NCBI RefSeq assembly: GCF_041381155.1
Contig: NC_091147.1
Location: 11,182,837-11,246,836, forward strand
DNA length: 64,000 bases
Source of the DNA: Argopecten irradians
Lineage: Eukaryota; Mollusca; Bivalvia; Pectinida; Pectinidae
Direction: 5' to 3'
The first letter of the stretch is position 1, and each line of letters begins with the position of its first letter. The notes beneath the pieces were generated by a model. It was not told where the DNA came from. It saw only the letters and a list, made by a program, of their open reading frames with translations, and did no database searches. Made by a program: the position numbers and the translations under genes. Shown here in pieces: positions 18,556 to 62,711 of the stretch.

Positions 18556-20305
18556 CCTGTTACTCATGCGCAAATCATATGAAATAGCCACTATCTTTGA
18601 ATATAGAAAACTGAAGTCAGTGCTTGTACCATAGACCATATTGGTGGCATATTTCTGCCATCGAGTTGCCGACTTACGACTTAATGATGTCGACATAATT
18701 AAGGCATTAAGTCGACATCATATCGGAAGATGTCGACATAAACAGAAGAATATGTCGACTTACCACATGAACCTGCCCACATAATGATTCCAAGAAAATT
18801 ATGTAGAAAGTCGGTAACTAGGCGATTAATCGTGTTTATGCTCGGGTGTGACACCGACTTGTCAGTTATTGATGTCGACATCTAAACTAAAAGATGTCGA
18901 CATCTGGTCATGAAAGTGGAATTCAAAGGCCATCCTTTCATAGGGCACTGTGTATATGCAGCAAGGCGCCATACAGCAGGGTTCGACGTTGATTTTGTTA
19001 ATTCAGAAAAGTTTTTATATATTTGATTACAAAATTAAAAATTGTGATCCTGCATATCCCGGCCATGCAGCTGTAGCCTGCGTGTACGTACACATTGTAG
19101 CTGTTAGTCCGAGCTGAGGAAGTTAGAGTGCAAAAGGACTCTGCTTTGTGCAACGAATTTCCATCCTCTTGGCAATAATCATTTATTAATATATATAACC
19201 GTGGGTTGAAAATTTGTTTAAAAGCTGTGTGTGTGCTTTGTGGATTAGCATTCGTACTAAGTCCATGTGGTACATACCGTACTATACTATATTACAATAA
19301 TTTTTTCAAGATTTCATTTTTTTGAATCACGAAAAATACCAGTTACGTAATTTAAAAGCCAAAAAGGTCACAGTACAGATACGCAATACCTATTTGGAAA
19401 CCAGCTTTACTTGTTAGCTTGCCCTGTCCATATATATACATAAATATTTACATCCCTCGATACACTTATATAAAGGCACAACGAATTTTTGTTACGGTCT
19501 TAATGGCCAGATTCAACCTTTGTGCTAAAAATCCTCCCGCGGGACGCGGTTTTAGCTCCAAACTCGGGATATATCTGCATCTATTTTTTGTAGTAAAAAC
19601 GTAGTAAAAAATGTCACGTGCTTATACCTCATTCATGCCATTGGCCGTAATATACAATTGTATTATGGGTAACTAGTGATCACGTGATTGTGTGCTTACT
19701 TCCAAATATGGTGATAGTTTGCTTGCCATTTCTTCGGAGAAATTGATTTATTTGAAAATATTTAGACTCCAAAATGTTATTAATATTGCATGCATATCAT
19801 TTTGACTTGCACATATGTATTATTTTACGATAAATAATGATCTGAAATGAGTTATAAAACTGTCATTTTCACGTTTTGTAAATAAATGATATAATGCGAA
19901 TTGACCAATTCAATAGGTCTAACCGTCTAATCTAGGATCAGCGAAGATCGGCTACTCCCGGCTAAATTCGTAGAATTCTAAAATTATATTTATATATATT
20001 ATTACCTGCTTTAGGTTTCAGAACATATACATGTACATATAACACAGAGAAAATAAGATCTTCTTCAAAAGGCCTAATTATGTATAAATACCAGGTCAGA
20101 GAAATCACTCTATTTGGAAGTAAACACACACTCATATGACCACTAGTTACCCACTAATACAATTCCATATTTATTTCGGCCAATGGCATGAATGAGGTAT
20201 AATCACGTGACTTGTTTTACTACGTTTGACTACAAAGAACGCGTGTTTTGTGCCATTATTGGGAAAATCCCCCGCGGATCGTGGTTTCATTTCCACCATT
20301 TGAAA

Positions 20306-21352: not shown

Positions 21353-23317
21353 TTTCAAATGGTGGAAATGAAACTACGATCCGCGGAGGATTTTCCCCAT
21401 AATTGTACAAAACACGAGTTCTTTGTAGTAAAACGTAGTAAAACAAGTCACGTGACTATACCTCATTCATGCCATTGGCCGAAATAAATATGGAATTGTA
21501 TTAGTGGGTAACTAGTGATCACATGAGTGTGTGTTTACTTCCAAATAGAGTGATTTCTCTGACCTGGTATTTATACATACTTTGGCCTTATTTTCTCTGT
21601 GTTATATGTATATGTTCTGAGCCCTAAAGCAGGTAATAATATATATAAATATAAATTTAGAATTCTACGAATTTAGCCGGGAGTAGCCGATCTTCGCTGA
21701 TTTTAGATTAGACGGTTAGACCTATTGAATTGGTCAATTCGTATTATATCATTTATTTACAAAACGTGAAAATGGCAGTTTTACAACTCATTTCAGTTCA
21801 TTATTTATAGTAAAACAGTGCATATGTGCAAGTCAAATGATAAGCATGCAATATTAATAATATTTTGGAGTCTAAATATTTTCAAATAAATCAATTTCTC
21901 CGAAGAAATGGCAAGCAAACTATCACCATATTTGGAAGTAAACACAAAATCACGTGATCACTAGTTACCCATAATACAATTGTATATTCCGGCCAATGGC
22001 ATGAATGAGGTATAAGCACGTGACTTTTTTTTTTACTACGTTTGACTACAAAGAACGCATGTTTTTACTACGAAAAATAGATGCAGATGTATCGCGAGTT
22101 GGGAGTTTAAAACCGCGTCCCTGGAGGATTTTTAGCCCAAAGTTTGAATCTGACCATTAAGACCGTAACAAAAATTCGTTGTGCCTTTATATAAGTGTAT
22201 CGAGGCAGAGATTTACATTTAAATCTCTGATCGAGGGATGTAAATATTTATGTAGGCCAAGCTAACAAGTAAAGCTGGTTTCCCAACGTGTATTGTGTAC
22301 CTGTACTGTGACCTTTATGGCTTTTAAATTACGTAACTGGTTTTTTTCGGGATTCACAAGAAAATACAACATAAAAAAATCTTTTTTTATTTTATTTTTT
22401 TATTTTTATTTTCATTCATTCTTTTAATATAGTATAGTACGGTATGACTACGTGGACTTGGTACGAATGCCAATCAACAAAACACACACACAGCTTTGAA
22501 ACGAATTTTCAACCCACGGTTATATATATTAATAATTCGTTGTACACTTCCTTAGCTCGGGCTAACAGCTACGTACACGCAGGCTACAGTTTCATGGCCG
22601 GGATGTGCAGGATCACATTTTTTTTTTTTTTTTTTTTTTTTGAAATCAAATCAACGTCGATCTCTGCTGTATGGCTTTTGCTGCATATACACAGTGCTCT
22701 ATGAAAGGGTGGCCTTTGATTTCCACTTTCAAGACCAGATGTCGACATCTTTTAGTTTAGATGTCGACATCAATAACTGACAAGTCGGTGTCACACCCGA
22801 GCATAAACACATTAATCGCCGAGTTACCGACTGTCTACATAAATATCTTGGATTCATTATGTGGGCATGTACATGTGGTAAGTCGACATATTCTTCTGTT
22901 TATGTCGACATATTCCGATATGATTTCGACTTAATGCCTTAACGATGTCGACATTATTAAGTCGTAAGTCGGCAAATCGATGGCAGAAATATGCCACCAT
23001 AAAATTGCAATATTTTCTAATTTTCGGATTAACGGGCCTTCGAACTATTAGGCCTTAGCGGTTCAAGTGACCTTAAAATTAACAGATGACGATTACTGCG
23101 TACTAATCAGACGGCGTGACCAGACCATTATTACACGATTATCAAATAATAAACAAATTATTGAAATTCATAGTTCAGAGAAAAATACTTTGACAACTCT
23201 CGGTAAAGAAATTGCTATCAAATTTCTTCATCTAGGTACAAACACATGCACACAATTATTTTCATTAGCAATCCAATATGGCGAGTGTTATCCATTGTTT
23301 GCGCATGTGTACAGGAA

Positions 23318-23615
23318 GGGACAAGTCGACAAGTCGACAACAAGTCGACAACACGACAAGGCGACAACACGACAAGTCGACAACTCGACAACACGACAAG
23401 TCGACATTTTACCGCGACAACACGAGATTCTGTACGCGCTAATTAGCGTGTTTGAAATGTCGACTTGTCGTGTGTGTGTCGACTTGTCGCGGTTCGAAAA
23501 CGCGACTAGTCGACATTTTAACTGTTAAATCTCGGGTTGTCGCAGTTTGAGACCGCGACAACTCGACAAGGCGACAACACGACAAGGCGACAACACAACA
23601 ACACGAGATGGCCGT
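23318..23615. repeat. Subterminal GTTGTCG array, right arm
   Basis: Mirror of the left-arm array, with a slightly different unit number. It contains GACAAGTCGACAA units on + up to about 23410, then the opposite orientation. Confidence 0.8.
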
Positions 23616-23629
23616 AATCAGCCACCATA

Positions 23630-23832
23630 ATATACAGTACAGCAAAGACACAGAGAGGTAATATTCGGCTAACTAATTTTTGATTTTCAAATAGATAAGT
23701 GGAAATTGACTCAATATTAAGTGCTTTAAATATTATTTTGTTGAAATCATTTACAAAGAAAAAAAATGCCCTAAACCAGTACTGTTTTCCGGAATTTTCG
23801 TCCGGATATTTGTGGTCATTAGAAAATCCAAC
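23630..23832 (+). promoter_or_regulatory. Presumed ZNHIT1 promoter and 5' UTR
   Basis: Only 203 bp separate the foldback terminus from the ZNHIT1 start codon, so at least part of the promoter and leader must lie here unless transcription starts inside the element. I see no TATA box at a convincing position. The placement is inference from spacing. Confidence 0.4.
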
Positions 23833-26800
23833 ATGGCTGACAAAAGAGAGTCTGGTACGTATTGTTATATTTAAAATGGATTTAACGTTTTTTTTTAGTA
23901 AAAGGAAGGGTTGACAATATCATATATTTGTAACATAAACTACATGTATTACCTTTTAATTCAAAATTCGCATTATATGGTACATACATGAGGCAATTTA
24001 AATGAATTGCAACAATGCACCATCTCCCCGGTCAGGCTCGTTTATCAGACCTCACCGTCTTGATTGCGTTTATACTATATTTGTCTAAATAGCCAAACGA
24101 GAAAATGATACAGTAGTGTCTTTTTCTTCTTTCATATATCTAGTCCTCATTCCAATGATTTCATACGTATACAGTCATTTATACCAGCCATTTAACCAAC
24201 GGAAGGGAGGTAACTCTTGGTATATTACAAAAACAAAAAACCAAAAAAAAACTAATAAACATCAAGAATGTTTTGAATAATTCATTATAAGGCAATAAAG
24301 TGTCAAGTGGAAACTGTTTATGAATTGCTCCTAAAACACATTTATCTTTTTAAATGAAAATCATAAACATGAAAATTGTTATTAATTTAGATTTGTTTGG
24401 TGTTGTTCATGTTAATTGTTTGTATTTTCCATTCCTTTGTTTTAAATGAACTTTACGTACAGATATTAAAAGTTTTGGTTGATTGTGAAATATATCTATT
24501 TCCTTATAACTCCATTATTAATTCAGTTTTATGTATTTGTTTATTTTTAAGGTAATTATATTGTATTCTTACATGCACAAGAGCCTATTTGTTATCACAA
24601 GTCATTTCACTGTCTGTGTCAACATAATGTTTCAAAAGTATGCTATCATGGTACCTGTATATTTTTCTGTTTTAACTTTCAGTAAAGACAAAATTATATA
24701 AAAGCATGAATTATTCCACTATAGTATAACAAATATACCCTAAGTCTTTTATTGAGAAACATATTCTTCAGGTTGGTAAGGAATATGTTATATAATTCTG
24801 TGTTACCAGGAGCATGTACTAGTCCGTCACATTTGTCATGTCTGGCTATTTAGTGAAATTATTAAGTCCCCCATCATGTTCAACAAAGACTTTATACCAA
24901 CTCCACATGTTTATCGCCATATGTAACATTAACATTATAAAGAAACTGTTATCGACTGAAATCCCCAGTTCCCAAAATTTAAAACTGGACTTATCAACAC
25001 TTTTACCATTTAAGTAACCTACACATGCTTGTGTACAATAGAAATTTAACAGGTCTGATTTATTGGATTAATATATTATAGTACCTGACCCAGTAATATA
25101 TAGTTTCATTAACTTAGGAATAGTTTTTGAACTTGAGGAAAATGTGAACTTTTCATGAAAATTATTAATTCTGTACCGGGTATGCCGTGCCAGGGAATGA
25201 AGAAGGTGTTCTTTTGTATTATACTGATGTCTGTCTCGTCCCGTTCACGATCATCCACATGTATAAACTGTGTCACATTTTTACAGATGTAATTATAGTA
25301 GAAATGATATTCCGTGTGTATGTTCAACCCAGGTTATCTCCCTAGGGTTCCACCTCTCTGTATTAATCACATAACAACACAGATAACATGTTCATGTCAT
25401 TTATTAAAGTTATTAAAGTTAGGACGACCACACAGTAGACAAGACAACATATAAAGACATACCGACAACTCTCACACGCAGACGTACATTTGTACAACGC
25501 ACCTTCAAAATACTGTACCGCACGATGTCCACCCCACAGACCCTGTAAATGATATACTATATATAAGTCGCACTGGTGAGCCTGTCGCTCTGATGTGCCA
25601 CGCGCACAGGTATGCGTGCTCTTTTTATACCCTGCACGCGCAAGGCTAGCCAATCATTTGAGTTACGGGTAGAATTACCTGCGCTATTTTTAGCCCACCA
25701 TCTGATATTCAAATCGCCCTGCGTCCGTGGTCCGGCGTCCGGCGTCCGTCCGTCCGTAAACAATTTATCACTATTTCTTAAAAACTGCTGCAGGGATTTT
25801 GTTCAAACTTCACATGGAGGGTCCCCTTGGTCCATGTTTGTGCCATACAGATTTTGAGGCTGATCGGAAAAATAAGATAATAATAATTTGATAGTTGAAG
25901 TTTGTTACCGCTATTTCTCAAAAGGTACTGAAGCGATCTGTCTCAAATTTTATATGTAGTATGTTTGAAAAAGTTTAAAAAGTAGAGAAAAGATCCATCT
26001 TTCCTTTGTCAGATATAGATCATTCTTTGGTGGGCGCCAAGATCCATGTGGGATCTTCTGTAAATATATATATCTTATCACACACGAACCATATCCCTGG
26101 CGCCAGGACTCAAACACACACACGCACACACGTAGTCTTACTTTCAATTCTGCCACATTATTCCATTGCCAGACAGGGTTTTCGGACAATTGTAGTAATT
26201 TAGCATTCAAATATACATGAAAATAAATTATATGATTTATCGATTAGAAGAGCAAAATATTTCATCAGCTGGATACCGGTAAGTGTATGTCCTAAAAGAT
26301 AATAATAAATATGACAGTTGGTTTTGCATTCCAGGGCGTGTGAAAGACCTTCAACAGAAGAGAGTTCTAGATGATGCTGCTCGACGTCGAAGACAAAGAA
26401 AGGCACTGGAGGCCTTAGAGTCAGACAACTTCCAGGATGATCCACACGCAGATCTCAAGATGAGTAAAAAAGCTCCTAAGTTTGAGGAATCTATGGATAC
26501 AGGTAATTTACATTGTTGATACTTTTACTAACCAGACAGTGTTGTTTGTGCCAAAAATTTAAATTGTTTTAAAGATGAACTGGATAAATATTGGAAAAAA
26601 ATCAATTTATTTTATAATTTCATGGCTAATTGATAACCTGAAGTGTTGTTACAATCAAAAACTGTTATCATAAGGTATGTAAAGAATTGAGTCTGGTGTA
26701 GAGGATATATTATCCTGTACCAGAAATCTATCATTAAATATCATCAAATTAGATATTAAAAAACTGATCCACTTCACGCACATCCAAACTCATTCATTGA

Positions 26801-29800
26801 TATTTGTTTCTTGAAAATTCATTACAGTTTTATATAACTGTTCATGTTGAATAATTACTGTGTGTATGTAAGATAATCATACAGAAATGATAAAATCCTC
26901 CTTTTTGAACAGGACAACCAGTGTCCAAAAAGAAAAGGAAAAGCAAGAGTGACCATTTCAAATTTAAGTACAAGAAAAGCTTTGCTGCATTAATAGAAGA
27001 AGAGGTGGGTACATGTGTACTGATTTACAATTACAAAGGAATTATATGTATACTAGTGACCTTGTTTACTTATAGTTGCAGTGATAAGATACACTGAACA
27101 ATCGTATGTAATGTATTTATTAGGCTCAACTATTACTGGTACCTTACTGAACATTCCTTATTGCTTTACTAGAATTCTTGAATAACTGGAAATTTGTCAC
27201 AAAATCCTCAACTTCAGGATACAGAATCTTGAGAGTAGATTTAGCAGTTATTTTTTCCGCTTATTAATTTATTAAATTAAAAAAAATGACAGACTCTGAA
27301 ACTAACAAAATTTCCATTTTTTTATTGCATAAACATGGTCAAGTAGATAAATTAACTGAATACAGAGTTTTTGAAACTGATTTATCATTTCTTAGTATTA
27401 TTTGTAGATTAATGATTCTAAACGAGTGATCATCGTAATTTTACTATCATTTGAATGTATCATATCGTATTGAAAAAAAGATGGATGTATCTTGAAATTG
27501 TATTGTAAGAAAACATCACGATACATCTGTCTTTCGATTAATCGTTACATGTACAGCCTTATCATGTATCATTCTTCACTAATCCTTCATCCTGTTGTGT
27601 CAAGTTCAGATCTCATAATGGAGCTTTGATGTCACACATCTCAGTATTTAAATCATTTATTTTCAATATCATTCACTTATTACGAAAAGACATTTTCATA
27701 TGATTTCCGGATGCGTTTTAACTCTAGAATAACAATTATGTATTTGGATGTATTCTTTCAGCACATGTTGAATAGAGACTCGCCTAACTATATGTCAGCC
27801 AGTGTACCACCATCCAAGTTTCCTGAGAGAAGATTCTGTGCTGTCTGTGGATATCCTTTAAATCTAACTATCACTTGGATAAATCTATAGAGTAATACCA
27901 TATTTCTGGTAAAATATATGGCCAAGATTTAATTAAAAAGGATAAAATTATATTTTAGAGATATTAAATTTTTGCAATTTTGCTTTATGGTCATATATGA
28001 TTCTACCATATCTTAACATTTTGTACGTCAATTTTTTTCCTGCAAAAATGTGAAAATGTCCCAGTGAAAATAACTGGCTATACAATAATATTGAATACTG
28101 GTATGTTTTTACTATGTAAATCAAGTCAAAGTAAACATCATAATTATGCTATGGGATATACATGTGCTGATGTATATGATTGGTTAAAGGTGTACTTTCT
28201 ACGTCTATTGGCAGGCGACGTACCAGTTATCGTCGAGTACCAATTCTCGCCATTGCATTTGAGTCTGTACGATTTCCATGCAAATTTAGTCAATAGAGCC
28301 TTCTTCTGATAGAAAAAACTACCATGCTGATTTCCACAAAAAATTGTCTCAAAATTTGTCTGTGATCATAGAAGTACATATGCGATGGTACTCAGCGAGA
28401 ACTGGTTGTTTGCCAGAAGTCATGGTAATTTAAGACATGCAAGGTTTTTGAGATCTAAAAAAGCTGGAAAGCCAATACTCTATGCTCGGAACACCTGTCA
28501 CTTGCCCTACCTGGGATTCTAACTTGTATCCCAGAAGTGGTGGGCCTATTAGTGGTAGAATATCATGGAATGTCTTAGCTAGGTTACTGCTGTCCCTATC
28601 TAAATTGAATGTGAAAAAGATAAGACAAAACATTATAATGATGAAAAAAACGAAATTTAAGAACTTTGTTAAAAAATCAAACACAAGATAAACACAACAT
28701 GAATATTAAGATGCAAAAGTAATGTATTTTGATACGTAAGCTAGGACATAATATATATAAATTAAAAATTATCATGAGGATTTTAAAATGACATACAGTA
28801 AATAGAACAAAAGGAATATTTTGGACATTTGAAACTACAAATGTACATGTGTTTAAGAACAATAGTATGTTGATTTATTTTTTTTATTAATTTGATCGAA
28901 ATACATGAATTATATAGAAATAATATTATATCAATACCCAAGTATATATTTAATTTTGTGCAACATAAGATCACATTTAATTTCCTTAACGAGGTCACAT
29001 TTCCATCTAACTACACGTGTGTACAGTGTGGAGCACGGTACTGCTCTGTCAGGTGTTTAGGAACACATCAGGATACCAGGTGAGTGGTAATTTGTTAATT
29101 CAAGTTAAAGTACATCTATTGAACCAGAACTTTATTAATAGATTATCTCCCCCTGGTAGGCAACTGAGAAATCTGACAAGTCGTATGCAGGAAATGTAAT
29201 GTGATAGTTCAAAGTTGTGTTAACTGATAAACAGACCTCAACCACAGGTAACAGATGGAAAACCTTTAACATGATCACCTTATATTGCCTGAAAATTTAC
29301 CTAAAATCAGTTGATTTGAATGGTAATTTTTCTCAATCAAAAACTGAAGTAGCCGATTTAGTATTTTTCTTCCTGTTACAAGAGTTACTTACATTAACTA
29401 TTGCCACCATTGAAAAGTTTGAGCTTCTAATTTTACTTTAAAGAAAAAAAAAAAAAAAAAAAAATTAATTGCATAAAAAATTCTGTGGCACTTTGTCCTA
29501 TATGGAATGCAGTACTGATTGCGCATGCACGAAAGCAAAATAAATTATTGTAAATTATTTTTTGCGTTAAATAGACATGTATACAAGATAAGACACAATT
29601 ATTGCTCAAATGATGGGTATCATTTATGCTCTGTTGGCGGTGGAGCATCTTTAATAGATTGTTTGCTGATCATTTGAATATTAAGATGCAAAAGTAATGT
29701 ATTTTGATACGTAAGCTAGGACATAATATATATAAATTAAAAATTATCATGAGGATTTTAAAATGACATACAGTAAATAGAACAAAAGGAATATTTTGGA

Positions 29801-31208
29801 CATTTGAAACTACAAATGTACATGTGTTTAAGAACAATAGTATGTTGATTAATTTTTTTTTTAATTTGATCGAAATACATAAATTATATAGAAATAATAT
29901 TATATCAATACCCAAGTATATATTTAATTTTGTGCAACATAAGATCACATTTAATTTCCTTAACGAGGTCACATTTCCATCTAACTACACGTGTGTACAG
30001 TGTGGAGCACGGTACTGCTCTGTCAGGTGTTTAGGAACACATCAGGATACCAGGTGAGTGGTAATTTGTTAATTCAAGTTAAAGTACATCTATTGAACCA
30101 GAACTTTATTAATAGATTATCTCCCCCTGGTAGGCAACTGAGAAATCTGACAAGTCGTATGCAGGAAATGTAATGTGATAGTTCAAAGTTGTGTTAATTG
30201 ATAAACAGACCTCAACCACAGGTAACAGATGGAAAACCTTTAACATGATCACCTTATATTGCCTGAAAATTTACCTAAAATCAGTTGATTTGAATGGTAA
30301 TTTTTCTCAATCAAAAACTGAAGTAGCCGATTTAGTATTTTTCTTCCGTTACAAGAGTTACTTACATTACACTTTTGCCACCATTGAAAAGTTTGAGCTT
30401 CTAATTTTACTTTAATGAGATAAAAAAAAAATTAAAAAAAAAATTAATTGCATCCCGAAAAAATTCTGTGGCACTTTGTCCTATATGGAATGCAGTACTG
30501 ATTGCGCATGCACCGAAAGCAAAATAAATTATTGTAAATTATTTTTTGCGTTAAATAGACATGTATACAAGATAAGACACCAATTATTGCTCAAATGATG
30601 GGTATCATTTATGCTCTGTTGGCGGTGGAGCATCTTTAATAGATTGTTTGCTGATCATTTCAATCATTGAAAAAGCCATTTTAATGACAGTAAAAATCAT
30701 GTGCAAAAATGGTATATTGGCATGAATATAAAAAGTCATCATGAAGATTCAGATTTCAGATGAACTGAAAATCACAAGTTAAAAGAAAAGCTATATCAAC
30801 AGAAGACATTTTACCTGTGTATATTTATATATATCCACAGAAGACATTTGACCTGTGTATATTTATATATATCCACAGAAGACACTTTACCTGTGTATAT
30901 TTTTTCTTTTGTTCCTTATTTAAAAAGCACAGTGTCAATTCACAGTGTCATGCTAGTTGTTTGAAAATATAGTTATCATCTTCTTTAGGCTACAAAAATG
31001 AGAAACTTGTAATTTATGGCCATTTTGATACACCATAAAGGGAGATAATTCATTAAATCTAAGTACCTGGGTAATGAAGTGAATGTGAGACTGAAGAATA
31101 AAAGTTCGAAATTTACAATAGTTGTTGCTTCTGAATTTATGGTTTATGTAGATTAAGTTGGCTTTTCTTCTCTCTTTGACTTCCAGGTGTTTGAAATGGA
31201 CAGCTTGA
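23833..31208 (+). CDS. ZNHIT1: ZNHIT1, HIT-type zinc finger subunit of the SRCAP/SWR1 complex
   Basis: Six coding exons: 23833-23854, 26335-26502, 26913-27004, 27762-27850, 28999-29079 (or its copy 29973-30053) and 31187-31208. They join in phase to 157 residues; human ZNHIT1 has 154. The product starts MADKRESGRVKDLQQ and keeps the family's LEALESDNFQDDPHADL block (residues 32-48). It has a basic, NLS-like KKKRKSK (69-75) and a C-terminal HIT finger with ligands C120, C123, C131, C134, C139, C143, H147 and C152. ZNHIT1 serves chromatin remodelling that deposits H2A.Z. Exons 1-3 and 5 end in GT donors, but exon 4 ends at an AT-AC intron of U12 type. Exon 5, which carries five of the eight zinc ligands, exists in two identical copies. 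Intron 1 is 2.5 kb and carries old repeats. Confidence 0.95.
25315..25690 (-). mobile_element. Possible solo LTR (fossil)
   Basis: Within ZNHIT1 intron 1, the minus strand shows a TATAAAAAGAGC box near 25625 and, about 225 bp on, a polyadenylation-type AATAAA near 25400. The layout resembles the promoter and R region of a retrotransposon LTR. Termini and target duplications could not be set and no internal coding region is present, so the family is unknown. Confidence 0.3.
25691..25960 (+). repeat. Interspersed repeat with CGTCCGTCCGTCC start
   Basis: It opens with TAGCCCACCATCTGATATTC and GGCGTCCGTCCGTCCGTAAA. It then has two degenerate copies of a block with TATTTCT..AAA..CTG, AGGGATTTTGTTCAAACTTC and its relative CGATCTGTCTCAAATTT. 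Such CCGTCC-headed repeats are abundant in bivalve genomes (general knowledge). It is non-coding and lies in intron 1 of ZNHIT1. Confidence 0.5.
27851..28998 (+). other. U12-type AT-AC intron of ZNHIT1 (to exon copy 5a)
   Basis: The donor reads ATATCCTTTA at 27851-27860, a match to the minor-spliceosome donor. TTCCTTAAC at 28982-28990 matches the U12 branch-site consensus, and the intron ends in AC at 28997-28998, nine bases after the branch adenosine. No GT donor exists at this exon border. Joining TGTGG to ATTTCC restores the conserved CGFPS segment exactly. The alternative acceptor before copy 5b has the same branch site at 29956-29964 and AC at 29971-29972. Confidence 0.9.
28700..29675 (+). 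repeat. Tandem duplication unit 1 carrying ZNHIT1 exon 5a
   Basis: This is the first copy of a unit of about 975 bp, repeated directly after itself. It starts at GAATATTAAGATGCAAAAGT and ends at TTTGCTGATCATTT. It holds the end of the U12 intron, exon 5a (28999-29079), a GTGAGT donor and a MITE near its 3' end. The copies differ by a few substitutions and by homopolymer or A-rich indels, so the event is recent. Confidence 0.92.
29305..29655. mobile_element. TTAA-target MITE, copy 2 (inside duplication unit 1)
   Basis: This segment is related to the copies at 786 and 62366. It shares TTACAAGAGTTACTTAC-like and GCGCATGCAC blocks and the right end GGCGGTGGAGCATCT followed by TTAA. The left end is decayed. 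The duplication breakpoint lies about 20 bp beyond the right end. Confidence 0.6.
29676..30660 (+). repeat. Tandem duplication unit 2 carrying ZNHIT1 exon 5b
   Basis: Second copy of the unit, with exon 5b at 29973-30053, identical in all 81 bp to exon 5a. The branch site, AC acceptor and GTGAGT donor are also retained. The junction with unit 1 shows a short CAT overlap, compatible with microhomology. Confidence 0.92.
30279..30640. mobile_element. TTAA-target MITE, copy 3 (inside duplication unit 2)
   Basis: Duplicate of copy 2, made by the exon duplication and not by transposition. It differs mainly in the A-rich run around 30420-30445 and keeps the GCATCCCGAAAAAATTC block. Confidence 0.6.
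30801..30905. repeat. 38-bp tandem repeat, 3 copies, ZNHIT1 intron 5
   Basis: AGAAGACATT starts units at 30801, 30839 and 30877, each followed by ACCTGTGTATATTTATATAT. The last copy runs into a T-rich tract. Confidence 0.85.
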
Positions 31209-32213
31209 GGATGTTAGTGACAGATATGAAGTTGTCAGAAGAAAGGAGTGGCTGAGACAGACCCATGAAGGGACAAGTAATCCCTGATGTCCTGAAAGGA
31301 TCCAGGATTATTTCTGTGATATGTAAAGGCAGGCAATGGACTAAAACATCCTACTGTGACTGTACAATGTAAATATGTCACTGTTTGACTCCGTGAAATA
31401 GATTGGGTTGGCCGATCTGACTGAACAGCAGGGCTGATCTTCTTTACATGACTACTAAACCTAAAGGGTATTCACAATCTGTGGCATGTGCTAGGTATTG
31501 ATGTTCTCCAATCGGCAATGGCGAGTTAGGGGGAGGCAGATTTAGCAGAATATCTGTTTGTGAAAATAGTTTCAATAATCATTTTGTTTCATTTCTGTGT
31601 GAAACTCTACTGTATGGCTTTGTTTGGTATCAATATCAGTACAGATCAGCTTTATTTATTGTAACTACAGGGGATTGCGTGGTATCAACTAATTTCAATG
31701 TAGTACAGCATCACAATAATAAACTAGATTGCATGAATGATTAAAATAAATCTAAAACGGTAATGTTACATACATCGTATGATGTACATAGTCTAAACTG
31801 TGACAAGACAAATGCTGTAATTAATACATGCTAAGACAGTAAAAACTGATGAAGTTGTTTAAATTGTTAATGTCACATTTCTGTGTAGATGTGACAGGAA
31901 AATAAACAATTATTATGATATCATGCCCTTCTTAATGTAGTTGTTTTTTTTCGCAAAATTAATCAAATATCAAAGTGTAAAACCATATTTTCACTCAAGT
32001 CTTATATTGGACATGGAACATTCTTTTTCCTGAAAGCGACCTTTATGTCCCAAGAATACAAGTGTCTGAATTTTAAAGCATTTTTCTGTAAACATGATAT
32101 TGATTGGGTTTATAACCTGTTATGAAAAGTTGTGCCACAAATTAATTTATCCTTCACAACATCTTCTTATTGAATTGGCCATTGAATAAAATCCAATTTC
32201 TACTTCTGGACTT
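31209..32213 (+). promoter_or_regulatory. ZNHIT1 3' UTR and flank with polyadenylation signals
   Basis: After the TGA at 31206-31208 the first AATAAA is at 31718-31723 and a second at 31901-31906. A short perfect stem (TGTCACAT and ATGTGACA, about 31870-31896) precedes the second signal. The transcript end is not determined. After about 31930 nothing more is recognised until the minisatellite. Confidence 0.5.
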
Positions 32214-32940
32214 TAAAAGTAGAGAAGCCCTTCATTCCAGCATAAAGTAGAGAGAAGCCTTCATTCCAACATAAAGTAGAGAAGCCCTTCATTCGGACAT
32301 AAAGTAGAGAAGCCCTTCATTCCGACATAAAGTAGAGAAGCCCTTCATTCCGAAATAAAGTAGAGAAGCCCTTCCTTCCAACACAAAGTAGAGAAGCCTT
32401 CATTCCAACATAAAGTAGTGAAGCCTTCATTCCAACATAAAGTAGAGAAGTCCACCTCATTCCAACATAAAGTAGAGAAGCCTTCATTCCAACATAAAGT
32501 AGAGAAGCCTTCATTCCAACATAAAGTAGAGAAGCCCTTCATTAAACATAAAGTAGAGAAGCCCTTCATTCCAACATAAAGTTAGAGAAGCCCTTCATTC
32601 CGACATAAAGTAGAGAAGCCCTTTGTCCAACATAAAGTAGAGAAGCCCATTCGACATTCCGTCCAACATAAAGTAGAGAAGCCCTTTGTCCAACATAAAG
32701 TAGAGAAGCCCTTTGTCCAACATAAAGTAGAGAAGCCCTTTGTCCAACATAAAGTAGAGAAGCCCTTCATTCCAACATAAAGTAGAGAAGCCTTCATTCC
32801 AACATAAAGTAGAGAAGCCCTTCATTCCAACATAAAGTAGAGAAGCCTTCATTCCAACATACAATAGAGAAGCCTTCATTCCAACATAAAGTAGAGAAGC
32901 CCTTCATTCCAACATAAAGTAGAGAAGACCTTCATTCCGG
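32214..32940. repeat. 25-28 bp minisatellite, about 26 units
   Basis: The unit is approximately CATAAAGTAGAGAAGCCCTT followed by CATTCCAA. Variants end in CTTTGTCCAA or lack one C. A CTTTGTCC variant forms its own block at about 32620-32750, showing local spread of a variant. Because many units are 27 bp, all frames stay open for long distances, giving meaningless repeat peptides. Confidence 0.95.
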
Positions 32941-34399: not shown

Positions 34400-35290
34400 T
34401 CATCGACGTTGTTGTTGAACTTTCCTACAAACACGACAAACCTGAGTGCCATTTCTCAATTGTTTGCTTCTGAATTCGTCCGTTGGGAACTTCCGTTGAC
34501 ATTTGGAGCACTTGGTGGATGCAAATGGAAAGCTCAAGGTGCCTTCTTCTGGTATGATATCCAGGGGAAGGCAAGCATTAAATTCGAATTTGTCGAAACG
34601 TCTCTCTTCCATAGCCCTCCATATGTCTGCATATTTCTCCGAGGCGACGGAAAGTCGAGGAAGGATCTCGTCAGATTCTTTTAGTTTCCTGTACATAGGA
34701 AACATGGCGACAACATCAACGACACAATAGTCGATCAGAGTTTCCGAGAGAGGTCGAACTTTCCAAATCTCATAGTTATCCCTCAGTTCGTTGTTTCCCT
34801 TCTCTTTTTGCTTCAAAAGTTTTGCGTCGTAGACGTAGTTTTCCAGACAGCGTTTGTAGCCGTTGATATTTTCCACTTCCCAATCCCTGTCGCATCTCTT
34901 GATCGACTGAGTTTGTGTCCGTCGCGGCCTGTTCTTTCTGCGATAGATGATGTCCAGGAGTTGTAGATCCAACACCCCTGTTATCTTCACCTTAAATTGG
35001 TGCCATAGACTGTCAGAATCCTGTCTGCAATCAAACATCAACTTCTCGATAGATTTACTCTCTAGAATTTCACGGAGGCCATTATCAAAAACAGACTGTC
35101 CAAGTTTGAAGACATCAAAGATAAAAACTTTCGTTTCAGTGGCAATTGTTAGGATTGTCAGTTGACCTTTCCTGCTCAGGTTGACCCCTTCACAGTCAAC
35201 GGCAATTAGCTTTCGGCTTTTGATTTCCGAAAATGCTGAAGCAATAGCACCTTTGTTGTCGATCAATGTATGGTCAGTCGGAGTCGCCAT
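34400..35290 (-). CDS. EXD1-like DEDDy 3'-5' exonuclease with C-terminal zinc ribbon
   Basis: Single-exon frame of 296 residues. The start MATPTDH was chosen because the upstream extension runs through a pyrimidine-rich TTTTAG that looks like a splice acceptor just before it, so a non-coding 5' exon is likely. The exonuclease domain spans about residues 25-205: motif I AVDCEG gives D32 and E34, motif II CRQDSDSLW gives D91, and motif III IDYCVVDVV gives Y188-x3-D192. The set is complete for a DEDDy enzyme. A tail with CSKC (261-264) and CRVC (285-288) looks like a small zinc ribbon. The closest family I know is EXD1/EXDL1; mouse EXD1 acts in piRNA biogenesis and has lost catalytic residues, whereas this protein keeps them. 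Substrate and role are unknown. AATAAA on the minus strand at 34028-34033 may end the mRNA. Confidence 0.88.
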   Translation of the reverse strand: MATPTDHTLIDNKGAIASAFSEIKSRKLIAVDCEGVNLSRKGQLTILTIATETKVFIFDVFKLGQSVFDNGLREILESKSIEKLMFDCRQDSDSLWHQFKVKITGVLDLQLLDIIYRRKNRPRRTQTQSIKRCDRDWEVENINGYKRCLENYVYDAKLLKQKEKGNNELRDNYEIWKVRPLSETLIDYCVVDVVAMFPMYRKLKESDEILPRLSVASEKYADIWRAMEERRFDKFEFNACLPLDIIPEEGTLSFPFASTKCSKCQRKFPTDEFRSKQLRNGTQVCRVCRKVQQQRR

Positions 35291-36557
35291 TCTTGGTTCT
35301 AAAATAACGTAAAATATCAATAGCATTTATGAGACTTTAATTTACAATACTATATAATTCTAATTTTACGCACAATCAAATGGAAAATAAAAGTTGACTT
35401 CTTTAATTGTGGTCGAGTCGACATAAGAGGAATACTTGATGCACTTTGAGTTGCTATATTCCAGGTTGTTCTAGTGTAACGAAAATCTCGTGATTTTTTT
35501 AAAAATTGATAACATTAAAATTAATTTTCTAGCGAATGAAGTTGTCATATGAACTAACTATATTCTTACCATTTAGTTGACGAATTTAATTCACTGACCA
35601 CCATAATGTAATGCGAAATCGCAAAAATATCAACACCGCGAGAATTACCCGCCTTACGTGTGAAATGTTTATGAGTTTCCACAATTCATTATTTGCACAT
35701 GACAGAGCTATCTTCCCTTGCGGGCAGGTACATTTTGTATTAATCATGACGTCATGTGTTTCCAAGCGTAACGTCACACTTTTTAGATAAAACGACGTGA
35801 ATTTCGCTGATATAATCATGGCGTCTCAATTGATACTTACCCGTAAGGGAGTTTACTCTATGATATGCAAAGACGGAATAACAAAACATAAGATCTATAC
35901 CAGTGATGTCTGTCGATGTACGAAGTGTACACTTACATATGCATCTACCTTGCATAGCGAATGTACACAAAATAGACACACATAATTTTAACATATCGGA
36001 AGGAAAATACTACATTTTATTGTGGTCTTGTTATATATAGTTCGCCCTCGCAATAGTAATATTAAGCACTTATACATACCTTGGTGAGATACAGAAGTCT
36101 CTTACGTCGGTTTTAACACTAATTGTTCAATAAACCCCAAAGTACGTCCTCTGAAGTCGTTTCACCTGTGTGACAGTAAATTACTAAAACAAATAACGAT
36201 ATCCAATACACGGTTACACTACCCGGAAGTTAGTACTAAAAATAGAAATAATGTTTTCTGTAAACTTAGCACTTACAGAAAGATGAAAACGATTTTTCTA
36301 ATCATGCAGTTTCTATCAGTATTGATGTACAACTCGATAAGGTTGATAACTATCTCACGAGATATCGATATATGTGGAGTTATACCAACATGATCATTGG
36401 CACAGTCAATAATCCATTTATCAGTAAGGGTTCCCGGAAGTGCACCTGCAGGTGCATTTACTCCGTAAACCAAATCGATATCTTTATCACTGACTTCGAG
36501 GAACCATCTCGCTTCCCTGGTGCGATTACCCCGGTGTGTTTTTCGGTGTACGTAACA
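35291..36557. other. Upstream region of the EXD1-like gene
   Basis: It holds the presumed first intron and promoter. A perfect palindromic CRE, TGACGTCA, is at 35747-35754, with AACGTCAC and ACGACGTGA nearby; this is the best promoter candidate. No coding exon is supported. An ATG at 35818 on + followed by GTAAGG at 35843 could be a first exon in the other direction, but that is speculative. Confidence 0.4.
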
Positions 36558-43192: not shown

Positions 43193-46100
43193 TCAAACTG
43201 GAAGTCCTATCGCCACGAGTTTGCGCACCCACTCTGTCCGGGGAATACAGTCCAACATGAATTTGGCCACGTCCCTCCGAGGTATTTTTCTTATGGCACC
43301 TTCTACATACTGTCCCTCAGCGGCCTTCACCTCCTTCCCTGTAAACAAGGAAGCAACTGTACACTGTTTATTTTTTGTATAAGCGCCGATTGAAATGTTG
43401 GGCAATACTTCTAGACCTATATCCTTTAAATCAATACTCTAACAATGAGACAAGAAAAACATATAAGCTTTATTACAATGTTACAATTTATTAATGCAAT
43501 GAAACATTTTGAATCACTGGAATATATATGACAGAGAGTAAAACCATTTATATTTAATCTTGCTTCGTCGCTAATATGGACGTGAGCTAATTATTTGGTT
43601 TGAAACCAACAAAGGAGCACTTTAAATTCTGTCCATAAATGATCGTCAAAAGGAGATCTATATATCTATTTGCTTTATAAACAACGCTACTTCTTAAATA
43701 ATCATCACTGAATTGCATCATGGACAAAAGACATTCGTGTGATATTTGCGGGATATTATTGTGCATGTCATTTTGACCCCCAATCAGGCAAATTTTCAAA
43801 ACTGTTATTATGTGACTGATCAAAAGCAAACTTTTTCTCTTTCTGGACGTGCAGTGACTTCAAATGTGACTGATCAAAAGCAAACTTTTTCTCTTTCTGG
43901 ACGTGCAGTGACTTCAAATCAAATCATGCACAATGCCTCTCTACTTGGGACGTTATCGCAATCGTAATCTTTCTAGAGAATTTTCAAAACGAATTAATTT
44001 CAAGTGCATTATCAATTGGTTTTATCATTTGAAGTTCTGCAGTTTTTTGAGAGATACGCCTAAAATACATATGTCCCTGATCAGCAGGTAGCAGATGATC
44101 GATTCAGGCACACTGTGCCCTTGTTTAATCTCAACTTTATCATATAAAGCAATACTCTACGTAGCACTTTGTAGGCATAGCAACATCAGATATTATCCTA
44201 GTCGTGGATGATGATAGTCGAATTATTTGATTGGCCAATAAAGAATGTAGGAAGTGGGAAGGGGGAGTGTTAGCGATCGGTCAATTATTTCATTAGTCAA
44301 TAAAGGATGTGGGTTGAGTTTGGTGAACAGTCACCACAACTTGGTTGGTCGGTCAGTCCCGGAGGTTTGAGTTTGGTGAAAGGTCACTTACCACTACTTG
44401 GTTGGTCGGTCAGTCCCGGAGGTTTGAGTTTGGTGAAAGGTCACTTACCACTACTTGGTTGGTCGGTCAGTCCCGGAGGTTTGAGTTTGGTGAAAGGTCA
44501 CTTACCACTACTTGGTTGGTCGGTCAGTCCCGGAGGTTTGAGTTTTGGTGAAAGGTCACTTACCACTACTTGGTTGGTCGGTCAGTCCCGGAGGTTTGAG
44601 TTTGGTGAAAGGTCACTTACCACTACTTGGTTGGTCGGTCAGTCCCGGAGGTTTGACTTACCACTACTTGGCTGGTCGGTCAGTCCCGGAGGTTTGACTT
44701 ACCACTACTTGGCTGGTCGGTCAGTCCCGGAGGTTTGACTTACCACTACTTGGCTGGTCGGTCAGTCCCGGAGGTTTGACCACTGTGTAGTCCAAGTCTG
44801 TACACTGTTGCTGTAGGTACTCCTCCATTACCGACATACTCTGTAATACACTGGACAGAATCACAGGGCGTATGACCCACTCAAATATCCACGGACCTCT
44901 GCTCTGTGCTGGAGAAGAAACCATTTCAATCTCACTAACACATATCATATGTTTACTTTTTGAAACTTTAATGCTCTATATGCATTTTAACTTTATTTTC
45001 CTTTAACATAAAACACAACATTACTGCTTCATAAACCTTGGCGTTTTATTGCACAATCTGATAAAAACGTAGATCCTCAATTGAACGGAGTGGTTATAAG
45101 GATCTGTGTTTTAATCAGATTGTTTATTGTAGTCCATTCTACCATTATACAAGGACGTAAACTTACCGAAACTTACAGGGATGGTAAAATATACAACTCA
45201 AACCATTTTATCACATAACTAGCCCGGCCAGTCATGTCATTATACAAGTACTGACTTTTTGTAGGTTAATACGAGGAATTGTTAAACCTGAGAAAGGTGA
45301 TATTCCTCAAGGCCGAAGGCCGAGGGAAATATCACCTTTCAAAGGTTTAACAATTCCTCGTATTAACCTACAGTGAACTGCGTTCAAGCGTCCGGATTAG
45401 ACTCCTCCCTCAAATGTTGTAACATTCTGTTACGACAGCCAATGAAAACTCTTGGAAGTTGCCTCGATTGGTTAGACTGCATGTGGTGTAGCGCAAACAA
45501 TGTTGACTTCAAAGGGATCTACTGATTTGACGTGATCACACCTTTGTACCAAAAAAATGTTAGCATACACTTGAGATAAAAAAAGGTTTCAGACATGTTT
45601 TTTTAATTCAATCGTACCATATAACCATCGAAAGACAACAACATTATATATTGATAGTTTCGATAAACGTTCTCTGGAACATACACGGTTGTAGTTGTAT
45701 ATATAAGGCCAAAAAATATGTCTCTTTTCGGTTACATTGGCAAAAAATAGGGTCGGTAGGTAGAGATTTTTTTCAAGTTCAGATGCAATAGCGAGCTATT
45801 TACTAAACAGATATATGGCTCCTATTTATCAACAAAATGATTAAACATTAGTGTCTTTCACTCTTGACTCTTTATCAAACAATGAATAATTGGAGATTTG
45901 ACTAAGAAAGATGGTATTAACAGATTAGATTGGCCTAGAGTAAAACTATTAATGGGATCCTTTAAGATAAAGAAACAAAAATTAGGGTCGGGGGTAAAAA
46001 ATTGGGGTCGGTCGGGTAACCCTAAACAGACATGTTTTGTTTTTGGCCTAATGTAGATGTTTCATCCGGAAGCATCCTACCTCTAAATGTAAGCTTGTGA

Positions 46101-56579: not shown

Positions 56580-58732
56580 CTACTTTCGCTTGGTTGGGGT
56601 CAAGCAGAGGGGATGTTTTGCAGACCTCCTTTCAATGTCTCCATTCTCCACTGTACATTCTGTTCTTCTACATAAGATCCACAGATTATGGATTTCATTG
56701 ACACCATACATCTCAAAATCTTGTGCAGAAATGAAAGTCAAAAGGCCTGATGGACAGGACTCTAAGCATTGTAGCAATTCTTTATCAGGAAACCTGAAAT
56801 ACAATAGAAGATGCTGGTCAAGAATATGTAGTTCAAGGTAGGGGTGCCATGTATGATGTAACTTTCAACATGATTTCAATAGAATGCACCGACTCTTTCA
56901 GCCTGTAGCTAAAGGTGGATTTTATATAAACTAGGCATAAAGCTAACCACTATTCAAAGTTATATATTTATGTAGCTTGGTATGCATTTATAAAAATTAC
57001 ATGGACTAGATGTTCATTCGCAAATTCCTTGGTTATGTCCCCCAGGTTGAATGAATTGCGGGTAATATGATCTTTTAATGTAGATCCATTAAGGTCTCCA
57101 GACAAATTTAACAGGTAGGGAGTTTCCACTGTATTCCGTTGCTCCAGCTTATTCAGACAGTTATTCAGCTTTGCCTAAAATCAATTGTTTGATTATTTTG
57201 GTTTCCCAAAACTTACTAAACATATTATCACACTTAGCATGCAGTTAGATCAAAACCTAACTGGGACCAAAATGTTATCGACATCCGAATATTCATTTCA
57301 TCCTTTTTTATTATTACTGACCGAAGGTCAGGATGACCTATTGTCATCATGTTTCGTCCGTCGTCGTGCGCCGTCCGCCGTGCGTCGTGCGTAAGACTAT
57401 TTATACAAAAGCCTACTCCTCCTTCATCCTTTGATGGATTTCATCCATATTTGGTTTGAAACATCATTGGGGAAGGACAATCATATTTTATATAAATGAG
57501 CTTGGTCCAACCCCTAGGGGCTGAGGGGTGGGGCCCCAAAAGGGCAAATTTTCTTATTTTAAGCTTTAAAATCCTACTCCTCCTTCATACTTTGTGCTGA
57601 TTTCATCCATATTTGGTGTGAAACGTTATTAGGGAAGGACAATCATATTTTATATAAATGAGCCTGGTCCGACCCCTAGGGTCAGAGGGGCGGGGCCCCG
57701 AAAGGGCAAATTTTCTTATTTTAGCTTTAAAATTCTACTCCTCCTTCATCCTCGGATTGATTCCATCCATATTTGGTGTGAAACATCATTGGGGAAGGAA
57801 AATCATATTTTATATAAATGAGCCTGGTCCGACCCCTAGGGGCTGAGGGGTGGGGCCCCAAATGGGCAAATTTTCTTATTTTAGCTGTAAAAGTCTACTC
57901 CTCTTCCTCCTTGGATGAGTTTAATCCATATTTGGTGTGCACGTAAAACATCATTTGGGAAGGACAATCATATTTTATATAAATGAGTCTGGTCCGACCC
58001 CTAGGGGCTGAGGGGTAGGGCTCCAAAAGGGCAAATTTTCTTAATTTTAGCTGGCCCACTTCCTATTTTCAGGTTTCGGTCTCTGATCTTAATGAAAATT
58101 GGTCTATAGGGGTTTTAATTGATGCCGAACAACATGCAAACATTTCGTAAAGATTTTGGTATTCCAAGATGGCCGCCTGGCCCACTTCCTGTTTTAAGGT
58201 TTCAGTCTCTGATTTCAATGAAAATTGGTCTATATGGGTTTTAATTGATGCCGAGCAACATTCAAACATTTTCTTAAAGATTGATTCAGAAGGGGGAATT
58301 TTAAGTGAGGACAATCATATTTTATAAAGGACCGAGCTAATCCCATGAGGATAGTACGACAGAGGTCCAAAATGGGAGCTTTTGTTGAATTTTGGATTTA
58401 AAATCTGACTCCTTATATTAATCCTTGAATGGGTTACAACCATATATGGACGAAGGGCTACCAAGTGTTGTTCAACAAATGACATTTACCTATTTCAGAA
58501 AATTACATGTCAACTAAGGAGTTCCTTGTATTTTTTTATATTAATTGTTAACCACTACTTCATACTGTGACTTTGTAGTTTTGTGCCATGAGTCAGATGA
58601 CCGTTAAGGCCCATGGGCCTCTTGTTTATTATTACCAAACAAGGTAATCAATATTTCATATATCTAACAGCAATGACAATGTTGACTTATGAAGGTAGTT
58701 ACCAGAACAAGTGCGATGTCGATGTTTTCAGT
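56580..58732 (-). CDS. Unidentified gene, three candidate exons
   Basis: I do not recognise the product. Three minus-strand exons have good signals. The first, 58703-58732, lies between TTTTTTCAG and GTAACT and encodes TENIDIALVL. The second, 57001-57174, lies between TTGATTTTAG and GTAATT; its 58 codons start AKLNNCLNKLEQRN and include FNLGDITKEFANEH. The third, 56580-56793, follows TGTATTTCAG and reads FPDKELLQCLESCPSG to a stop after LTPTKRK. The first two join in phase into a helix-rich, soluble-looking segment. The third needs a different incoming phase, so an exon is missing between them, or the third belongs to another transcript, or one border is wrong. Upstream exons would lie beyond 58732. 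Almost all of the 1.5-kb intron is filled by a tandem-core repeat element. Confidence 0.45.
57314..58635. mobile_element. Tandem-core repeat element 1 (GGGCCTCTTGTT end)
   Basis: It opens with GACCGAAGGTCAGGATGACC and GCGCCGTCCGCCGTGCGTCG, then has four copies of a 161-bp unit (CTACTCC at 57413, 57574, 57735 and 57895), then two copies of a unit of about 128 bp with TTGGTCTATA, and ends AAGGCCCATGGGCCTCTTGT. A TTTATTATTAC-like stretch flanks both ends and may be a target duplication. Cores of about 160 bp are known from bivalve pearl/CvA-type elements; kinship is my inference. It is non-coding. Confidence 0.65.
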
Positions 58733-59304: not shown

Positions 59305-61157
59305 GTCATCTGACCCGAAGGGTGTCATCATGCACCGTCCGTCGTCGTGCGCCGTCCGCCGTGCGTAAACTTTTCATTCAAACAACTTCTTTCTCAATAA
59401 CCGAAAGGCCCAGGGTACTGATATTTGGCCAGTAGCATGCTGGGATAAAGGGCTACCAAGTTTGTTCAAATGAATGACCTTGACCTTCATCCAAGGTCAC
59501 AGAGGTCAAAAAGGCTAAAATCTTGAAACGACTTCTTCTCAAGACCCACGAGACCTATGGTACTGATATTTGGCCTGTAGCATGCTGGGATGAAGGGCTA
59601 CCAAGTTTGTTCAAGTGAATGTCCTTGACCTTCATTTAAGGTCACAGGGGTCAAATAGGCTAAAACATTCTTTAAACAGCTTCTTGTGAATAACTAAGAG
59701 AGGTCTAGAGACCTGATATTGGACCCGTAACATGCTTAAATGAAAGGCTATCAAGTTTGTTAAATGAATAACCTTGATCTTCATTCAAGGTCACAGGAGT
59801 CAAAAAGGCTAAAATCTTTAAACGACTTTTCAAGAACCAGAAGGCCCAGTGTACTGATATTGGGCATGCAGGATGCTGGGATGAAGGGCTACCAAGTTTT
59901 TTCAAATGACTGACCTTGATCTTCATTCAAGGTCACAGGGGTCAAATAGGTTTAAAATATTTAAACGACTTCTCGACAATAACTAGGAGATCTAGAGACC
60001 TGATATTGGGTCTGTGACATGCTGGGATGAAGGGCTACACCAAGTTTTTTCAAATGAATGACCTTGATCTTCATTCAAGGTCACATGGGTCAAATAGGTT
60101 AAAATATTTAAACGACTTCTCGACAATAACTAGGAGGTCTAGAGACCTGATATTGGGCCTGTGACATGCTGGGATGAAGGGCTACCAAGGTTGTTCAAAT
60201 GGATGACCTTGATCTTCAGTGAAGGTCGCAGGGATCAAATAGGCTTAAATATTAAAAAGACGTTTTCTCAAGAACAAAAAGGCCCAGGATACTCCAATCT
60301 GATTGAAATACAGATCCTAATTACCACTACATTGGATAAGAAGATATGAGAAAATCCCATTAGGGGTCATGTCCAGGTGACCTTTGTAAATGGCCAATCA
60401 AATTGCTGCTGGCAAAATTTTGACAGTGAATTTCAGGGGACGAAATAGTTTGAAAATATGTCAGAATTATTTCCGTGTACGTAGTCATCTCGCCCAAAGA
60501 GCACAACAAAGCTAACCGTATATGTATATTGGGGCGAAATGAGGTTGTCAATTGATATAGCAACGAGCAGAAAATGTATTTGATCTGAATTACACGTGGT
60601 AAAAGGTCATCCGAACATGACCCTTAATGGGATATTGTCAGATCCTCTAATGAACGGAGTGGTTATAAGGATCTGTATTTCAATCAGATGGAGGATACTG
60701 ATATTGGACCTGCAACATGCTTGGATGAAGGGCTACCAAGTTTGTTCAAATGAATGACCTTGACCTTCATTCAAGGTCACAGGGGCCAAATAAGCTAAAA
60801 TCTTTAAACGACTTCTTGAGAATAATTAGGAGGCCTGGAGACCTGATATTGGGCCTGTGGACATGCTTGGATGAAGGGCTACCAAGTTTGTTCAAGTGAA
60901 TGACCTCGATCTTCATTCAAGGTCACAGAGGTCAAATAGGCTGAAATTTAAACAACTCCTTCTCAAGAACCGAAATGCCCGGGATACTCATATTGGGCCT
61001 GCAGCATGCTAAGATGAAGGGCTACCAAGTTTGTTCAAATGAATGACCTTGACCTTCATCCAAGGTCACAGGGGTCAAATAGGCTAAAATCTCTTTAAAC
61101 GACTAGGTTGTATTGTGCTAATAGTCAGATGACCGTTAAGGTCCATGGGCCTCTTGT
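59305..61157. mobile_element. Tandem-core repeat element 2 (GGGCCTCTTGTT end)
   Basis: It starts AGGTCATCTGACCCGAAGGG and GCGCCGTCCGCCGTGCGTAA. It carries about nine units of 141-150 bp (GCTACCAAG at 59452, 59597, 59888, 60181, 60732, 61021 and related positions) and ends AGTCAGATGACCGTTAAGGT and GGGCCTCTTGTT. GGTCATCTGAC near the start and GTCAGATGACC near the end form a subterminal inverted repeat. Units are rich in AAGGTCA half-sites. A MITE interrupts it at 60294-60691. Confidence 0.7.
60294..60691. mobile_element. hAT-like MITE nested in tandem-core element 2
   Basis: A 398-bp insertion with ends CCAATCTGATTGAAATACAG and its inverted match. It is flanked by a perfect 8-bp duplication AGGATACT (60286-60293 and 60692-60699). 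Removing it restores the host unit. The 8-bp duplication places the family with hAT. Confidence 0.9.
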
Positions 61158-62246: not shown

Positions 62247-62365
62247 AAGATAAAGCCACCTCCAATTAATCTGAACGTGGCAATTTTGTTTCGATTTAAA
62301 ATTAATTTGGTCATTGATAATTAGCCCTAGTCACTCCCTCCCAAAACCTGTCCCCTATCCCTTAA

Positions 62366-62707
62366 AGATGGTCCACCGCTGACAAATGGTATTTTATCTC
62401 CATCAAAAACAGGAGCAGAAGAACTAGTATTTTTATTCAGTTACAAAAGTTACTCATCACCATTAACACCATTGAAAAGTTTAAACTTCTAATTTTACTT
62501 CAAAAAATTTAGGAATAATTAATTGCGTCCCGAAAAAATATTCGTGGCACTATGTGTTACAAGTACTGATTGAGCATGCACCACAAGCAAAATAAATTAT
62601 TTCATTTTTATATTTTGTAAATATTAGACATTATCTACACAAATAAACACCAATTATTTTTCAAATGATGAGTATCGTTTATGCTAGCTGTTGTCGGTGG
62701 AACATCT
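62366..62707. mobile_element. TTAA-target MITE, copy 4 (best preserved)
   Basis: Starts AGATGGTCCACCGCTGAC and ends GTCGGTGGAACATCT, with TTAA on both sides (62362-62365 and 62708-62711). It is 342 bp and non-coding, and defines the ends of the family seen at 786, 29305 and 30279. Confidence 0.8.
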
Positions 62708-62711
62708 TTAA

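Follow-up and report, generated by a model that had tools for sequence, protein, structure and literature searches.

Introduction

U2/U12 incompatibility between splice sites is an established cause of mutually exclusive splicing. The systems closest to the one considered here are exons 6a/6b of MAPK8/9 (JNK) and exons 11/11a of TMEM87A/B, in which the competing sites are U2 acceptors and U12 donors (PMC8329584; PMC6717393). Five human clusters of mutually exclusive exons, or 0.79%, show U2/U12 acceptor incompatibility (PMC5740500), and an introductory statement elsewhere limits the mechanism to two-exon clusters that mix the types and are uncommon (PMC6071210). A paper on tandem exon duplications mentions U12 0 times (PMC9013439). 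Doubled exons can also be technical. False exon gains in genome assemblies are established as well, and both false exon gains and false duplications arising from sequencing error (‘homotype’) have been described (PMC9516828). Here we analyse a 64,000-nucleotide stretch of Argopecten irradians DNA (contig NC_091147.1, positions 11,182,837 to 11,246,836; hereafter the window), whose + strand carries an apparently complete ZNHIT1 gene with two copies of exon 5.

The original prediction for this locus was that the two exons are mutually exclusive by spliceosome type and have been caught at the birth of such a pair. Its premise that U2/U12 mutual exclusion already exists in animal genes agrees with JNK and TMEM87, which have the mirror orientation. 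In the open-licence literature we found no report of ZNHIT1 with such an exon duplication, and a search combining ‘minor introns’, ‘duplicated exons’ and molluscs returned nothing there. Our analysis of the sequence suggests that the second exon 5 copy is slightly likelier to be a false exon gain from assembly than a real duplication, and we give the former a probability of roughly 0.53.

Results

The second exon 5 belongs to a 975-bp direct repeat. Copy A (28700–29679, + strand) and copy B (29675–30664, + strand) were found by self-comparison; they stand head-to-tail at a spacing of 975 and are 98.0% identical over 992 aligned columns. The interval first proposed, 28700–30660, ended 4 bases short of the end of the repeat. 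Of the 100 self-matches listed for the window (E ≤ 1e-10), the 60 longest include no other pair above 90.6% identity. Exon 5a (28999–29079) and exon 5b (29973–30053) sit within a 316-base run that is identical between the copies (28908–29223 in copy A), and they agree at 81/81 bases. Selection was rejected as the cause of this identity, as 4 substitutions in 976 bases give P = 0.72 for finding none in 81. The copies meet at 29675–29680. The junction reads CATTTGAATATT; set beside its left (ACATGAATATT) and right (CATTTCAATCATT) originals, it shows that microhomology at the break is at most 1 nucleotide (nt). There is no N at the junction, and the N count in the whole window is 0.

The last third of the repeat unit is a dispersed element, which is probably a miniature inverted-repeat transposable element (MITE). 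Self-comparison placed it at 29319–29654 in copy A and at 30293–30639 in copy B, both on the + strand, with relatives of 75 to 80% identity at about 785–1147 and 62362–62712. Its ends resemble inverted repeats, with a GCTCCACCGCYGACAAATG-like left end in two copies; the intron copies carry GGCGGTGGAGCATCTTTAA on the right and have no clear left end. The downstream edge of the repeat lies roughly 20 bases past the last match of the element. Recombination between two MITE copies was considered as the origin of the repeat and rejected, for a comparison of 28601–30760 with the window gave no element match at the upstream edge.

The two MITE-like relatives served as outgroups for polarising the differences between copies A and B. 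Outside the poly-A tract, 5/5 insertions or deletions (indels) in the MITE-like part were derived in copy A: a T was gained, and C, CCCG, C and C were lost. Within the tract, a 5-base loss was also derived in copy A, while three further poly-A columns were not polarised. The polarised derived substitutions in this part numbered 0 in copy A and 1 in copy B. Over 28700–29675 the copies differ by 9 indel events and 4 substitutions, or by 7 indels if the poly-A tract is taken as one event; an edge mismatch at 29676 is not counted. On the assumption that a quarter of neutral changes are indels, the excess of indels has P = 0.001 (9/13) or 0.008 (7/11), and if a third are, P = 0.008 or 0.037, respectively. 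Ordinary divergence would be unlikely to give five indels and no substitution in the copy A lineage (P = 0.001 under the first assumption and 0.004 under the second). Because all five of these indels are derived in copy A and no derived substitution is, the downstream third of copy A has the look of base-call errors, and the data suggest that it carries them. Only 1 of the 13 difference events falls in the middle stretch, 28908–29373 (a stretch picked after the fact), as if the two ends were the noisy ends of two overlapping pieces. These polarised differences make a false duplication at least as likely as a real one.

The same comparison bears on the possibility of a real, very young tandem duplication of exon 5, perhaps still polymorphic, from which each productive mRNA takes one copy. 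The one-sided, indel-only differences suggest technical noise and count against it. Other features speak in its favour: the join is seamless, with no N; the exons are intact; and the copies differ by only 4 substitutions in 976 bases, or 0.4%. The splice signals described below bear on it too, and we hold it possible, at somewhat less than an even chance.

With a human ZNHIT1 query, tblastn located exon 2 (26335–26502), exon 3 (26913–27004), exon 4 (27762–27850, ending in TGTGG and followed by a U12 donor) and the two exons 5, each of 81 nt and followed by a U2 donor GTGAGT, at 29080 and 30054. The coding part of exon 6 (31187–31208) encodes CLKWTA and a stop that ends at 31208, and a strong U2 acceptor precedes it; all of these exons are on the + strand. 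A candidate exon 1 at 23833–23854 (+ strand; MADKRES plus 1 nt, donor GTACGT) was the sole one listed in a scan of 22000–26300 filtered for phase-compatible sequence rich in Lys, Arg or Glu. With it the N-terminus would equal in length that of human ZNHIT1.

Without exon 1 the product has 149 residues, of which 146 align to human ZNHIT1 (PDB 8x15 chain L, E 8.5e-58), and it matches Pfam zf-HIT (PF04438) at 45 bits, above the cut-off of 24.7. The domain and the full-length similarity place it in ZNHIT1, a member of SRCAP. The gene name and the exon structure of the original prediction are right, and its description of exon 5 also holds. The exon is phase-symmetric (2-2), and the frame is kept with one copy, both copies or neither; of the eight zinc ligands, five (C, C, C, C, H) fall in it on alignment to human ZNHIT1, read with the zf-HIT ligand pattern. 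A product with both copies has two zf-HIT stretches and scores 67.1 bits in Pfam, and when exon 5 is left out, Pfam gives no match (E ≤ 0.01). Both copies were found by tblastn at E 3e-13; all other matches to exon 5 had E 0.99 or worse, which gives no sign of a third copy. With phmmer, residues 73–133 of the 149 also matched INO80C chains (E 0.0003 to 0.0007). This segment extends from ahead of the finger into part of it, and a distant kinship of the segment is possible. The last 54 residues gave 6 pattern matches in viral_contigs, of which 0 were confirmed.

The splice signals are of two types. Directly 3′ of exon 4 stands a perfect U12-type AT donor, ATATCCTTT (27851–27859, + strand). Exon 5a is preceded, at 28982–28998 on the + strand, by the U12 branch site TTCCTTAAC (28982–28990) and an AC acceptor (28997–28998), and exon 5b, at 29956–29972 on the + strand, by the same branch site (29956–29964) and an AC acceptor (29971–29972); in both, the branch A lies 9 nt from the end of the acceptor. 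A scan of 27900–31300 for sites matching the U12 consensus, in which the branch A had to be followed at a distance of 8 to 21 nt by the end of an AC or AG, found only these two at 9/9; the next best site listed reached 7/9. The branch site, AC acceptor and following GTGAGT proposed for each copy are therefore all present. Single motifs mean little: against 40 simulated sequences, the branch motif with AC was seen 4 times on the + strand of the window (1.05 expected), ATATCCTT 3 times (2.5 expected), and neither on the − strand. The U12 motifs are convincing by their exact position, because they are located where the ZNHIT1 alignment requires a junction. The near-perfect 5′ site after exon 4 and the acceptor-close branch site at both exon 5 copies are marks of a U12-type AT-AC intron.

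Downstream, the U2-type acceptor of exon 6 ranks first among the 130 AG sites in 29085–31400, on a score with rough weights. Skipping of exon 5 through a U12 branch site before exon 6 was judged unlikely, for the best candidate, CTCTTTGAC, matches at 7/9 and stands only 7 nt from the end of the AG. The donor of 5a, GTGAGTGGT, and the acceptor of 5b, TTCCTTAAC...AC, are of different types, and the earlier argument that the two could not be paired follows sound splice-site logic.

It is a sound inference that the AT donor of exon 4 would need a U12 acceptor, of which 5a and 5b both have perfect ones, and that the GT donors of 5a and 5b would need a U2 acceptor, of which exon 6 has the strong one. 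Transcripts should thus run 4-5a-6 or 4-5b-6. As the copies are identical, these are the same mRNA; the two exons do not encode different versions of one segment (81/81 bases agree), and the choice of copy brings no diversification.

The order of the two steps matters for the yield. Splicing of U12 introns is about 2- to 5-fold slower than that of U2 introns (PMC3584512), and the U2 step therefore probably precedes the U12 step. Should the U2 step join 5a to exon 6, 5b is predicted to be lost and a productive mRNA to result. Should it join 5b instead, the U12 step must take 5b; taking 5a is predicted to be a dead end in which the 5a-5b intron is retained. The frame of such a transcript would be stopped one base into the intron by a TGA, which lies 970 nt upstream of the 5b-6 junction, and the transcript is likely to be a target of nonsense-mediated mRNA decay (NMD). 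The perfect U12 signals at both copies, the slower U12 step and the early TGA in the retained intron all fit a real young duplication with one copy in each productive mRNA.

Leakage through cryptic U2 acceptors is conceivable, and four such sites, each of which would splice 5a to the whole of 5b or to a part of it, were translated. The best is an AG in exon 5b (30025–30026, + strand; TACTGCTCTGTCAG followed by GTG), which would open at 30027 and add 27 nt in frame; its score of 4.2, by the same rough weights, is above two of the four authentic U2 acceptors (0.9, 3.5, 5.4 and 8.7). The others would shift the frame: 30035 (+19 nt, score 2.4), 30001 (+53 nt, score −1.1, rank 31 of 130 AG sites) and 29968 (+86 nt, score −1.4, rank 33). 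Leakage at these sites would count against a clean choice between the copies. It is reasonable to expect one exon 5 copy per productive mRNA, as first proposed, but the claim of ‘never both’ was too strong, given the retained 5a-5b intron and the cryptic acceptors in or just before 5b; it is not assured that the two copies never occur together.

The cryptic acceptors and the dead end in the splicing order would also suit a real duplication with common double inclusion or intron retention. It would lower ZNHIT1 output and would be a slightly harmful, passing variant, not the start of a new isoform. The low scores of 29968 and 30001 speak against this, and so does cross-exon definition, which should favour whole exons. 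We consider this outcome very unlikely.

Several other features were noted in the window. A 38-bp unit is repeated three times at 30792–30902, in the last ZNHIT1 intron, and a 27/28-bp tandem array of about 26 copies lies just downstream of ZNHIT1 (32216–32938). On the − strand, 34400–35326 holds an open frame of 308 amino acids with a DNA_pol_A_exo1 3′–5′ exonuclease domain (E 2.9e-18), which we take to be EXD1-like. A large inverted pair (18642–20305 and 21353–22999; 83% identity over 1748 columns) could represent a long-armed transposable element. Self-comparison showed tandem arrays at 59377–61104, 57407–58053 and 44311–44780, with spacings of about 146, 161 and 53; the last is open in frame, with a GWSVSPGGLSLVKGHLPLL-type repeat. 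Rfam at gathering thresholds gave 0 matches in the window, and a tRNA search found 0.

Discussion

We propose that the second exon 5 may be a false exon gain. Two overlapping, error-bearing stretches of one locus would have been placed end to end and not merged; they could come from two alleles, or from a single allele bearing read errors. The true gene would then have a single exon 5, with a U12 AT-AC intron upstream and a U2 GT-AG intron downstream. What is observed is a repeat whose downstream third shows one-sided, indel-only differences; the base-call errors, and hence the technical copy, are what we infer from it.

Several points weigh against a false exon gain. Copy A shows no differences in the 80 or so bases that lead up to 29676, and copy B shows none in its first 176, whereas the noisy end of a piece should be worst at its tip. 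A gap between the copies, usual in false exon gain though not required, is absent (0 N). The intact ZNHIT1 exons suggest good base quality elsewhere. Errors at these positions could also persist without polishing in the inner parts of a real duplication, since the cleaner copy would draw the reads of both. Finally, the direction test alone is weak (5/5, P = 0.06), and the four differences at 28876, 28886, 28907 and 29224, which lie upstream of the element, are not polarisable.

Real duplication, in all its forms together, comes close to an even chance and stays short of it. We suggest, more tentatively, that a real tandem exon duplication with copies still identical would be nearly harmless from birth, owing to the U12 intron upstream and the U2 intron downstream. 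The idea of a pair caught at birth assumes a real duplication; this premise is unproven, and the polarised differences suggest base-call errors instead.

Either outcome would be instructive. If the duplication is real, it is the starting state of mutually exclusive splicing before divergence, with double inclusion barred by spliceosome type alone. It would then make a clear prediction on splicing order and NMD, and offer a natural test of whether exons between introns of mixed type tolerate duplication, in which the cost of the dead end in splicing order could be measured. If it is false, it is a warning, for a perfect splice-site story would rest on a repeat with differences that resemble read errors. 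Dispersed repeats within a duplicated unit can be used to test for such errors.

In sum, the locus resembles two kinds of known system, and the gene differs from known ZNHIT1 only in its structure, the doubled exon 5. As in false exon gains (PMC9516828), an exon is repeated within its own gene. One copy may also carry error-type sequence: copy A has the derived state at 5/5 indels outside the poly-A tract and no polarised derived substitution, which is suggestive, though the events are few. False exon gains mostly have a gap, and sometimes a read-depth gap, between the copies, whereas the ZNHIT1 repeat has no N (PMC9516828). As in JNK and TMEM87, two alternative exons would be separated by a mismatch of U2 and U12 sites (PMC8329584; PMC6717393). 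The JNK and TMEM87 exons differ in sequence and are used in a tissue-specific manner, whereas the ZNHIT1 exons are identical, and the order in ZNHIT1 (U12 acceptor, U2 donor) is the mirror of theirs (U2 acceptor, U12 donor). The mechanism of the five human clusters (PMC5740500) is of the same kind as the one predicted for ZNHIT1.

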